In this document: in pieces, positions 33,101-38,600 of the stretch
Layout: the number at the start of each line of letters is the position of its first letter
Numbering within the stretch: the stretch's first letter is position 1
NCBI RefSeq assembly: GCF_964204645.1
Contig: NW_027437462.1
Location: 27,001 to 91,000 of the forward strand
Length of the DNA: 64,000 nucleotides
Source of the DNA: Tubulanus polymorphus
Taxonomy: Eukaryota > Nemertea > Palaeonemertea > Tubulaniformes > Tubulanidae
Direction: 5' to 3'
Program-made: the position numbers and the translations under genes
The notes under the pieces: generated by a model
Databases searched by the model: none
Told to the model about the DNA's origin: nothing
What the model saw: the letters and a program-made list of their open reading frames with translations, nothing else

Positions 33101-33255
33101 CATCGACGGTTAACATAAACACTATCAGCTTTTCGAGACTAACTGCAGGCCGCGAGGAATAATACATGCCATTTAGAGCATTTCCTGAAAGATAACGATA
33201 GATGGCGCGGCTGTCTATATCGGATGATCTGTGCGTACGCCGTAGTTGTTACCTG

Positions 33256-34242
33256 ATGAATCCGTTTAAAACTGAGGTAAGTTGCATACAGTGTGGTAAT
33301 CCAGTGTAAGGGGGCAATCCAGTGTTAGGTGGTCAAGTGTCAGGAGGCGCCTCCTCATCTGTGCAGACACTACTACAGACAGTGTCATTCGCTGACTGAC
33401 AGACAGTAGTGAGTGGAGTCCATGCACCTCTCTCTCGACTCGAGTCTATAGATTGGAACTGGAAGATGATGTCGTCGGTCAATCAGTTTTTGACTCAGGC
33501 TGTTGTTGATTCAAACTGATATTTTTTCTCCTGTGTTTTCAGGTTTTATCGATATTTAAACGGTTGCACAGAACGCGATTGTTGACATTCAGAGGAGACG
33601 AACAAGCTTTAATCGGTAAATAGTAGAACCTGCTGCCACGCCTTCATGCTGGCAAAGGAAAGTTTTTTACATAAATTGTGAAATTTTAATTTTTTTGAAG
33701 CCGGAAGAAAAAAAATCAACGACGAATTTAAAAAGTTTAAAGAAACGAAAGAATTGGAAACAATTAAATACGTAAGTATTACCCTTTATTATGTGGCGCC
33801 CCCTACTGGATCTCCTGACCGTCGTATATCGTTATGTAGCTAGCGCCCCCTGGTGTGTCCCGGGTGACTAACTGTAACATAGATTTCACCACTTCCTGTA
33901 TTATAGTTATTGAAATCAGCGGAAGAAGCCGAGGAATATTTGAGGACGTCTGTGATTCAAGCTACTCAATCTAATCCCGGTGTATTCTGTAAGTATTCTC
34001 AATCTAATCCTGGTTTATTCCTAACCTAATCCTGGTCTATTAATCTAATCGAGGTTTTAAATTGATTTTCTTGTATTTTTAATTGTTGTATATTTTTAGC
34101 CGCTGAAATAACTGAAAATACAAAGTTATTAGACAACACACCTTATAAATACTCCCCCGAGGAGACAATGCGCAGGACTGAAAAACAGATACAACGACGA
34201 CGTACCAATAATAGAGACTGCGGTTGCCAGGAGAAACAGTAA
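33256..34242 (+). CDS. LYRM7: LYR motif-containing protein 7 (complex III assembly factor)
   Basis: LYRM7 (yeast Mzm1) chaperones the Rieske Fe-S protein in the mitochondrial matrix before insertion into complex III. Exons: 33256-33276, 33543-33615, 33701-33771, 33907-33988 and 34100-34242. The product reads [19 protein letters not shown], then [28 protein letters not shown] and a Lys/Arg-rich tail ending [22 protein letters not shown] and LLRTSVIQ are the recognisable family blocks, and length (about 130 residues) is close to the family norm. An in-frame ATG at 33202 would add 18 residues but lies inside an AGATGGCGC motif, so I prefer 33256. The stop codon (34240-34242) is two bases before the SBDS ATG. 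Confidence 0.9.
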
Positions 34243-34244
34243 CT

Positions 34245-35079
34245 ATGTCTATATTTACACCGACCAATCAGAAACGGCTGACGAATGTTTCGGTCGTTCG
34301 AATGAAGAAAGCGGGAAAAAGGTTTGAAATCGCTTGTTACCCGAATAAAGTGAAACCATGGAGAAATAAAATAGAGACGGATATCGACGAAGTCTTACAA
34401 ACACATAACGTATTCATCAATGTATCTAAAGGTCAAATAGCGAAGAGCGATGAATTAAAGAAAGCTTTCGGAACAGATAAACACAGCGATATCTGTATGG
34501 AGATATTGAGTAAAGGTGAGATGCAAGTTACTGAGAAAGAACGTCACGCGCAATTAGAAGAGTCGTTTAGAGATATCGCAACAATCGTAGCCGATAAATG
34601 TGTGAACCCGGATACGAAACGTCCGTACACGGTAACGATGATCGAGAAATCAATGAGAGACGTTCATTACTCGGTAAAACCGACGAAATCCACCAAACAA
34701 CAAGCTTTAGACGTGATCCGTAAACTGAGAGAAACCGATACTATAAATGTAGCACGAGCTCAGATGAGGGTTAAAGTTACTGCTCCCCGAAGGGAGGCTG
34801 GAAAAATACGTCCTAAACTGAGAAAACTTGCATCAAAAGTAGAAGAGGAACAGTTCGAAGATGAATTAGAAATGGTAATTACTCGTAACTACTACTACTG
34901 CCACCTGTTGTCGATTTTAGGTAATTAATACTGCCCTCTATTGTTAATTTCAGGTAATACTCGTCGACCCTGGTTGCTATAGAGAAATCGATAGTTTACT
35001 ACAATCAGAAACGAAAGGTAAAGGTTCATTAGAAATATTGAGTTTAAAAGACGTCGAAGAAGGTGATGAGAAACTATAA
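34245..35079 (+). CDS. SBDS: SBDS ribosome maturation protein
   Basis: SBDS works with the GTPase EFL1 to release eIF6 from pre-60S subunits in the cytoplasm. Exons: 34245-34874 and 34954-35079. The N-terminal FYSH domain reads [20 protein letters not shown] and [12 protein letters not shown], then [20 protein letters not shown]; the middle helical domain has [20 protein letters not shown] and [19 protein letters not shown]; the C-terminal ferredoxin-like domain ends [33 protein letters not shown]. This is near full identity in motif order to human SBDS (250 residues). The ATG starts two bases after the LYRM7 stop, with no room for its own 5' UTR on a shared transcript. A polyadenylation signal is at 35165-35170. 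Confidence 0.97.
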
Positions 35080-35636
35080 ACGAACACCAGATGGCGCTGT
35101 TTGAATGATTGTTTTTGTAGTCAGGTCTTTAAAACCTAGTTTTGCTAATCCTGCGTTCAAATTAAATAAAGCTTTTTCTACAGTTGATATTTTTAAGTCT
35201 TTGTTTCATTTATTTCTGTGGAAGGAATTTGAGGAATTTTAATCATTGAGGAAATTTAACAACATGAATTAAAGACGAATCCCTCGACCTCCTTAAATAA
35301 TCGCTCTATTTTGTCAAATTGTCAATGTATTGAATTTAGTCCGTTGGCGCAGTCCGATCCGGAACGAACATACTGCGGTAGCCGTATCACTATTAGATCC
35401 TAGCGCTAGTTTATGTAGTGCATATACAAAGATGAATTACATTTTAAAAACACTTATGATTCACTAATGAGATGTGATTTACCTCGTAAAATACAAACCT
35501 CAATAAATTTGTAGAATTTTAAGATTCTTTATGGAGCTGAAATATTTTGAATCGACGATGAGAGAATTGAAAGTAGTTCTAGGCGCTGGATGATGACATT
35601 GACAGTTCTGTCAAAATATTTTACTAGATTGAAATA
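35080..35636. other. Intergenic interval between SBDS and CC2D1
   Basis: Contains the SBDS polyadenylation signal and a CTCF-like AGATGGCGC just after the SBDS stop (about 35090-35098). No gene seen. Confidence 0.5.
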
Positions 35637-38600
35637 ATGTTTAGCAGAAAACGTGAAGCTAAACCGGATCGGACCAGTAGTAGTAATGAGTTGATGTCTC
35701 AATTCGGTTTGTTGGATCCAATCGGTGAGTTTTAAATGTCATCGTCAATCTAAGCGCAGTTGGGCGTACATTGCACTAATTAGCGACAATAACCGTTGTT
35801 GTGTAAATGTATGATGGTGTTTTTAGGAGGTCCTGGTGATGCAGGGGTGAATGATGCAGATTTAGAGGCTGAACTCGCTCTACTGATGGGTGAATCACCA
35901 GTAGCGCCACCTAGCAGTAAACGGGCGCCTAAACGTCTCAACGCGGATCAAACTGGTGTCGATATATCTCAAATAAATCGATTGGCTCTCGATAGTTTGA
36001 ACAACATCGAAGATGATGATAATGATATATCAGATACTGAAGATAATCCTGATTTATTAGCTGAATTAGCAGGTACTATGATATTAAACATCAAGTCACT
36101 GTCTAATTAATGCTGTCTAATCACTGTCCAATATCGCTGTCATCAATTAATTACAGAATTATCAGCAGAGTCACCTGTAGTTAGCGCTGCAGTAAGTCCT
36201 GATCATCAGCATATTTACACACAACCACCTACACCACCAGGTGGTGCTACTATACAACCACCTGCACCACCAGGTGGCACTTCTACGGCTGATCCGAAAT
36301 CATTGGTGAAAGAACGTATGGATAATTATACGGAGGCTTTGAGGAACGCGCAATCAGCAAATGAGTCGTCTAAAGTATGTAGTAGTCCACATCCAGATCC
36401 CCTTGTATCCCTCTCTGACTCCCTCCCACTATCAGATCCCCTCGTATCCTCTCTGACTCCCTCCCACTATCAGATCCCCTCGTATCCCTCTCTGACTCCC
36501 TCCCACTATCAGATCCCCTCATATCCTCTCTGACTCCCTCCCACTATCAGATCCCCTCATATCCCTCTCTGACTCCCTCCCACTATCAGATCCCCTCATA
36601 TCCCTCTCTGACTCCCTCCCACTATCAGATCCCCTCATATCCCTCTCTGACTCCCTCCCACTATCAGATCCCCTCATATCCTCTCTGACTCCCTCCCACT
36701 ATCAGATCCCCTCATATCCTCTCTGACTCCCTCCCACTATCAGATCCCCTCATATCCCTCTCTGACTCCCTCCCACTATCAGATCCCCTCATATCCTCTC
36801 TGACTCCCTCCCACTATCAGATCCCCTCATATCCCTCTCTGACTCCCTCCCACTATCAGATCCCCTCATATCCCTCTCTGACTCCCTCCCACTATCAGAT
36901 CCCCTCATATCCCTCTCTGACTCCCTCCCACTATCAGATCCCCTCATATCCTCTCTGACTCCCTCCCACTATCAGATCCCCTCATATCCCTCTCTGACTC
37001 CCTCCCACTATCAGATCCCCTCATATCCTCTCTGACTCCCTCCCACTATCAGATCCCCTCATATCCCTCTCTGACTCCCTCCCACTATCAGATCCCCTCA
37101 TATCCTCTCTGACTCCCTCCCACTATCAGATCCCCTCATATCCCTCTCTGACTCCCTCCCACTATCAGATCCCCTCATATCCCTCTCTGACTCCCTCCCA
37201 CTATCAGATCCCCTCATATCCCTCTCTGACTCCCTCCCACTATCAGATCCCCTCAAATCCTCTCTGACTCCCTCCCACTATCAGATCCCCTCATATCCCT
37301 CTCTGACTCCCTCCCACTATCAGATCCCCTCATATCCCTCTCTGACTCCCTCCCACTATCAGATCCCCTCATATCCCTCTCTGACTCCCTCCCACTATCA
37401 GATCCCCTCAAATCCTCTCTGACTCCCTCCCACTATCAGATCCCCTCATATCCCTCTCTGACTCCCTCCCACTATCAGATCCCCTCATATCCCTCTCTGA
37501 CTCCCTCCCACTATCAGATCCCCTCATATCCCTCTCTGACTCCCTCCCACTATCAGATCCCCTCATATCCTCTCTGACTCCCTCCCACTATCAGATCCCC
37601 TCATATCCCTCTCTGACTCCCTCCCACTATCAGATCCCCTCATATCCTCTCTGACTCCCTCCCACTATCAGATCCCCTCATATCCCTCTCTGACTCCCTC
37701 CCACTATCAGATCCCCTCATATCCCTCTCTGACTCCCTCCCACTATCAGATCCCCTCATATCCTCTCTGACTCCCTCCCACTATCAGATCCCCTCATATC
37801 CCTCTCTGACTCCCTCCCACTATCAGATCCCCTCATATCCCTCTCTGACTCCCTCCCACTATCAGATCCCCTCAAATCCTCTCTGACTCCCTCCCACTAT
37901 CAGATCCCCTCATATCCCTCTCTGACTCCCTCCCACTATCAGATCCCCTCATATCCCTCTCTGACTCCCTCCCACTATCAGATCCCCTCATATCCCTCTC
38001 TGACTCCCTCCCACTATCAGATCCCCTCATATCCCTCTCTGACTCCCTCCCACTATCAGATCCCCTCAAATCCTCTCTGACTCCCTCCCACTATCAGATC
38101 CCTAACTCCTGAACCCTCCTATTCATAATAACGATAGTAAGTATTCCCACATGTTCCACTTATTTAACCATGGTTTATTTGTGTATTTGTTTAAAAGGTT
38201 AGAAGATTAAACCGTGGATTAAAAACATTGAACGATTTATCAAAAAAACTGAAGTCAGGAAAACAGATCAATGTCGACGATATTCCACCCCAGGTGGCGC
38301 TAGGTGTTCCATCAGCTACAGCTAGACCAGAGGAACCAGTCCAACAACAACCTGAACCAGTAAGACATGTGCCTGAACCAGTCCAACACAAGTCGGCACC
38401 AGTCCAACCGGAGTGCGATCAGTGTTAGTGTTGTGTATTTGTTTTTTCACCGTCGTTTTCATTGTGTCTGTCGTTCACATTGTTTTATGTTTCTATAGCG
38501 ACGAGTCAACAAGATTTGAACGTACTTCATCGTCGTAGAAACGAATATAAACAGGCGGCATTGTTGGCTAAACGTAATAATAATTTAGAGACGGCGAGAG

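Follow-up and report, generated by a model that had tools for sequence, protein, structure and literature searches.

The genes for the complex III assembly factor LYRM7 and the ribosome maturation protein SBDS form one tandem locus in the palaeonemertean ribbon worm Tubulanus polymorphus, and their transcripts necessarily overlap. The two are complete, unrelated, spliced genes on the same strand, separated by 2 nt, and one continuous exon (34100-34874) holds the end of LYRM7 together with most of SBDS. The locus can be classed as a candidate for a dicistronic or exon-sharing pair. So far, it adds another case of abutting genes to a known class; at the same time, two housekeeping genes from different pathways are forced into a shared exon, which makes the locus a natural test of how a second frame is expressed 2 nt past a stop codon. 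All positions refer to the window, i.e., the whole stretch of DNA that was analysed (64,000 nucleotides).

Gene models and the junction

LYRM7 was rebuilt with five coding exons, all with GT..AG borders, and SBDS with two coding exons that encode 251 residues. The coding exons and the gap between the two genes are as follows:

33202..33276, + strand: first coding exon of LYRM7 (GT..AG, NCBI isoform X2; 33256-33276 when read from the conserved start)
33543..33615, + strand: coding exon 2 of LYRM7 (GT..AG model)
33701..33771, + strand: coding exon 3 of LYRM7 (GT..AG model)
33907..33988, + strand: coding exon 4 of LYRM7 (GT..AG model)
34100..34242, + strand: last coding exon of LYRM7, with TAA at 34240-34242; it must also bear the 5' leader of SBDS
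34243..34244, + strand: the complete LYRM7-SBDS intergenic gap, CT (read from the sequence)
34245..34874, + strand: coding exon 1 of SBDS, contiguous with the last LYRM7 exon, with ATG at 34245
34954..35079, + strand: coding exon 2 of SBDS, with the stop codon TAA at 35077-35079

From the conserved start at 33256, LYRM7 has 129 residues, and the NCBI isoform X2, which starts at ATG 33202, 18 codons earlier, has 147. Over its full length, each predicted protein shows 100% identity to a T. polymorphus entry at NCBI, namely "complex III assembly factor LYRM7-like isoform X2" and "ribosome maturation protein SBDS-like". Each gene is found at a single place in the 267.8-Mb assembly (LYRM7 with four exon matches there, SBDS with its first 210 residues as the query). 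Against Pfam, SBDS matches SBDS_N (113.7 bits), SBDS_domain_II (99.5 bits), and SBDS_C (81.5 bits), all well over cut-off, and LYRM7 matches Complex1_LYR with 25.3 bits, barely above the cut-off of 24.8. Since Pfam and the intact spliced models agree, albeit with this narrow pass for Complex1_LYR, we concur with the original prediction that both genes are real and no open-reading-frame artefact. Given that the NCBI entries are listed from a contig as long as this scaffold (91,000 bases), they do not constitute independent proof of expression.

At the junction, LYRM7 ends and SBDS begins as ...GAGAAACAG TAA (34240-34242), CT, ATG (34245) TCT, the letters at 34237-34250 being CAG TAA CT ATG TCT. 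The same letters were re-read, and the stop codon does lie two bases 5' of the SBDS start, as had been claimed before. The SBDS frame differs from that of LYRM7 and is closed by a TAG at 34212; thus, this exon allows neither a longer SBDS start nor a fusion protein, and ribosomes that read through the LYRM7 stop would append just 12 residues.

The start of SBDS is at most one residue off in all 14 other SBDS proteins aligned, in an alignment that took 15 of the 120 listed proteins, with three longer ones (286, 288, and 300 aa) among those left out. The tail of LYRM7 (...DCGCQEKQ) could be aligned in four of 12 other LYRM7 proteins, including those of two wasps and one bee. The closest is that of the bee Andrena (...EDCCTEK...), which extends further than the one of T. 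polymorphus; of the remaining tails, one is different and seven, named vertebrates included, are shorter or nearly so. Because this tail aligns with those of Hymenoptera, the final LYRM7 codons before SBDS look like true coding sequence, with a short stretch as the basis.

Tight spacing alone is not beyond chance, as open frames are commonly tightly spaced: for seven of the 15 open frames of at least 90 codons in the window (SBDS included), another frame of at least 30 codons ends no more than 40 nt upstream. The finding is therefore carried not by the spacing, but by the fact that both frames are recognised genes that end and start at the positions expected for their families. A screen for tight pairs in the window and in 200 kb of contig C1 ran into introns and repeated gene families, and did not yield an estimate that could be used.

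The sole intron of SBDS follows ...LEM, which we take to correspond to the human intron after codon 208. It contains a 33-base tandem duplication (34896-34958), in which another TTTTAG that resembles an acceptor precedes the one in use; read by eye, an exon from 34921 would truncate SBDS early.

Transcription and translation of the pair

Since a poly(A) site and a promoter cannot fit into 2 nt, the transcripts of LYRM7 and SBDS must overlap. An LYRM7 mRNA that contains the stop codon must end within SBDS or still further downstream, and the 5' leader of an SBDS mRNA must lie within LYRM7, unless cleavage or splicing takes place exactly at the junction. That the two transcripts have sequence in common under nearly any mechanism is a firm conclusion. 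Candidate signals for their ends are the following:

34144..34151, + strand: TATAAATA (sequence match) in the last LYRM7 exon, candidate TATA or internal SBDS promoter element
34344..34370, + strand: two AATAAA hexamers (34344 and 34365) that lie within the coding sequence of SBDS and have no U-rich element behind them; LYRM7 may end early here
35165..35170, + strand: AATAAA, accompanied by an ATTAAA at 35161 and with a U-rich stretch behind it; probably the poly(A) signal used by SBDS and by any LYRM7-SBDS transcript

With moderate confidence, we favour a mixed model, in which SBDS is made from a dicistronic LYRM7-SBDS mRNA by leaky scanning and also from a second, shorter mRNA that starts within LYRM7. 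The dicistronic mRNA would arise when a transcript initiated at the LYRM7 promoter continues as far as the poly(A) signal at 35165. LYRM7 would be translated from its 5' end, and part of the ribosomes would skip the poor LYRM7 AUGs and initiate at SBDS. The shorter mRNA, with its 5' end within LYRM7, would add further, perhaps most, SBDS protein, in relative shares of the two mRNAs that we infer. What speaks for the mixed model is that neither a poly(A) site nor a promoter is possible in the gap. The mechanisms listed in the original prediction (a dicistronic transcript with termination and reinitiation, an internal promoter, or trans-splicing) are a reasonable set; missing from it are leaky scanning, which is favoured by the start contexts, and polyadenylation of LYRM7 inside SBDS.

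The base at position -3 is T at the LYRM7 AUG 33202, C at the LYRM7 AUG 33256, and A at the SBDS AUG 34245, as it is in all five other gene starts picked from the open frames of the window; the start context of LYRM7 is weaker than that of SBDS. From 33256 up to SBDS, there are no out-of-frame AUGs, versus 1.2 expected from a shuffle of synonymous codons (P 0.14) or 2.2 with pooled codon use (P 0.03), and counted from 33202, there is one, versus 2.7 expected (P 0.13). SBDS itself is similarly short of AUGs (8 versus 10.3, P 0.12), and the shortfall in LYRM7 is a weak signal, borderline at best. A weak start for the first frame, a better one for the second, and a scarcity of AUGs together characterise leaky-scanning pairs in the fly and in green algae. 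Against leaky scanning stands the last LYRM7 AUG, at 34168, which is in the LYRM7 frame, has A at -3, lies 77 nt 5' of the SBDS start, and would capture scanning ribosomes before they arrive at SBDS. With a long leader, the upstream AUGs at 33166 and 33224 would also stand in the way. The ATG at 33224 opens an upstream frame of 10 codons, and the last base of its TGA opens the conserved LYRM7 ATG at 33256 (TGATG).

It is conceivable, though we consider it doubtful, that these are separate overlapping genes, with LYRM7 polyadenylated in SBDS exon 1, an SBDS mRNA that starts inside LYRM7, and no useful mRNA with both frames. Two AATAAA hexamers, 102 and 123 nt past the LYRM7 stop, would suit such early ends, but neither has a U/GU-rich downstream element. 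The T fraction in the following 40 nt is 0.17 for the hexamer at 34344 and 0.25 for the one at 34365, and 0.23 for an ATTAAA at 34454, all within SBDS, versus 0.57 after the AATAAA at 35165. Given the little T after the SBDS-internal signals and the much higher fraction after 35165, a run-through dicistronic mRNA appears to be the likelier LYRM7 product. A weak variant, AATAGA at 34210 (0.23 T downstream), could in principle serve as a signal for cleavage of LYRM7 near the junction. As for an own start of SBDS, the TATAAATA match at 34144 would put transcription initiation near 34174, past the obstructing AUG at 34168; this match has a P of 0.044 by base shuffle of the exon, but of 0.29 once protein and codon use are kept. 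Likewise, the CpG count of SBDS exceeds that of synonym shuffles (48 versus 39.7), but the CpG peak in SBDS exon 1 (1.66) is equalled in 8.7% of 389 repeat-free windows. An internal promoter for SBDS inside LYRM7 is possible on these sequence features, yet neither the TATA match nor the level of CpG is convincing, which counts also against the shorter SBDS mRNA of the mixed model. NCBI names the two proteins separately, as expected for separate genes, though its models might also split a dicistron.

An origin of SBDS from the dicistronic mRNA only, by leaky scanning and/or by termination-reinitiation at TAA CT AUG, without an mRNA of its own, is in our view unlikely. Besides the start contexts and the scarcity of AUGs, it is backed by reporters that supported leaky scanning in the fly sloth1/sloth2 pair and in algal pairs (PMC9681215, PMC11892635), and by the 45 of 159 FlyBase dicistronic loci that are of the exclusive type (PMC4528330). 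The spacing of 2 nt between stop and start also suits coupled reinitiation and fits what is expected of the TURBS type; five human transcripts are described as reinitiating in this way without a TURBS motif (PMC5972666). However, the AUG at 34168, with its A at -3, blocks the path of scanning ribosomes, a UGGGA motif is absent from 34100-34244, and the RNA fold of 34100-34300 is ordinary (z -0.58). Ribosome biogenesis requires a constant supply of SBDS, which is a further point against this origin. Moreover, a review regards reinitiation downstream of long cellular frames as presumably very rare, and in one studied case, the second product was lower by a factor of about 82 (PMC5972666). We give little credence to the strict form, in which SBDS is solely the second cistron of the LYRM7 mRNA (by leaky scanning or reinitiation), its level tracks how much LYRM7 is translated, and other spiralians have kept the pair. 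An operon as in tunicates, with a spliced leader trans-spliced to an acceptor in the last LYRM7 exon, is poorly supported and the least likely among the serious options. In its favour are the operons of Ciona, whose cistrons are a median of 1 bp apart (PMC7986045), and the CAG directly 5' of the LYRM7 stop. The tract before this CAG had been called purine-rich, and it does contain only 33% pyrimidine, versus 61-89% at the five real acceptors of LYRM7 and SBDS; the 11 AGs of the last LYRM7 exon have 28-67%, and the best of them, at 34162, falls within the range of real acceptors but is a GAG. In the one paper found to combine Nemertea, spliced leader, and trans-splicing, the first two terms occur in the references only. 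Trans-splicing as the main reading was dropped on acceptor quality. Finally, a local assembly fault at the junction is unlikely, and an error that deleted intergenic sequence is extremely improbable. The scaffold is small (91,000 bases, versus 32 Mb for contig C1), but the two frames are unbroken, as is every splice site; at the junction, the coding ends of both genes are complete, and the tail of LYRM7 can be aligned with hymenopteran ones. A random deletion would seldom halt exactly at such ends.

Comparison with known gene pairs

Dicistronic genes are an established class in Drosophila, where they make up 2.5% of gene models and FlyBase holds 159 pairs, with gaps from -34 to 319 nt at the loci that are only polycistronic (PMC4528330). 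The T. polymorphus gap of 2 nt falls within this range and, as in the fly pairs, two full proteins are encoded on one strand; a spanning mRNA is documented for the latter, and for LYRM7-SBDS we infer one. Among the 159 loci, 45 are exclusively dicistronic; the other 114 also produce monocistronic mRNAs, from both genes at 45 loci and from one gene at 69. For monocistronic mRNAs of the downstream gene, a downstream promoter is usually the source (PMC4528330). The original prediction implied that the layout is a surprise: it is present as described, but it is less unusual than suggested in view of the 159 FlyBase pairs.

By analogy, the fly pair sloth1/sloth2 seems closest in mechanism. There, too, the first cistron encodes a complex III assembly factor and has a weak start, the second has a better one, and the gap is short, with 5 nt compared with 2 nt here; an inverse relation was seen with reporters (PMC9681215). 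The difference is that sloth1 and sloth2 are both short complex III factors, related to each other and reporter-tested, whereas SBDS is unrelated to LYRM7 and leaky scanning at the T. polymorphus pair is a prediction. In the leaky-scanning pairs of green algae, beside which the fly genes stoned and Snapin are cited, the first start is likewise weak and few AUGs precede the second frame; those pairs have spanning mRNAs and in vivo tests, in contrast to a single locus with a weak AUG shortfall and a well-placed AUG in the way (PMC11892635). In theme, the human pair RPP14/HsHTD2 appears closest, as a gene for RNA processing (an RNase P subunit) is joined with one for a mitochondrial enzyme. In that case, the mitochondrial gene is downstream, whereas in LYRM7-SBDS the downstream gene encodes the ribosome factor and the shared mRNA is a predicted one (PMC4705651). 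The operons of Ciona also have next to no intercistronic sequence, but tunicates resolve the missing gap by trans-splicing, and LYRM7-SBDS lacks a good acceptor for it (PMC7986045). Similarly, termination-reinitiation of the calicivirus type places stop and start a few nucleotides apart, but with the UGGGA that 34100-34244 does not contain (PMC5972666).

Within the open-licence papers of PMC, we found no earlier report of the LYRM7-SBDS pair, of a nemertean dicistron, or of an operon in Tubulanus. SBDS was absent from the 18 papers found on dicistronic genes, operons, and trans-splicing, Nemertea was absent from the 20 papers listed (of 380) on dicistronic genes and the like, and of the three papers with both LYRM7 and SBDS none is, by title, on gene order. 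No contig shared by LYRM7 and SBDS matches in another animal was seen by eye among the best 120 of 574 and the best 120 of 2367 matches, from which nothing follows, given that the LYRM7 matches are mostly from mammals and the assemblies may differ. LYRM7-SBDS looks like a new gene pair in an arrangement known from flies and algae. That this layout couples complex III assembly to ribosome maturation, as proposed earlier, is speculation.

Genomic neighbourhood

Downstream of SBDS (35637-63909), a C2-domain gene (CC2D1A-like), a TLC-domain gene (ceramide synthase-like), a WD40 gene, and GRIM-19/NDUFA13 were identified with Pfam, the names CC2D1A-like and ceramide synthase-like being our own. Human CC2D1A, CERS1, and NDUFA13 are presumably all on 19p13, and on this assumption, the downstream neighbours may be an old linkage group. 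A 1.7-kb array with a 39-base unit (36394-38102) was read as lying within an intron of the C2-domain gene, and many such tandem arrays are found across the window.
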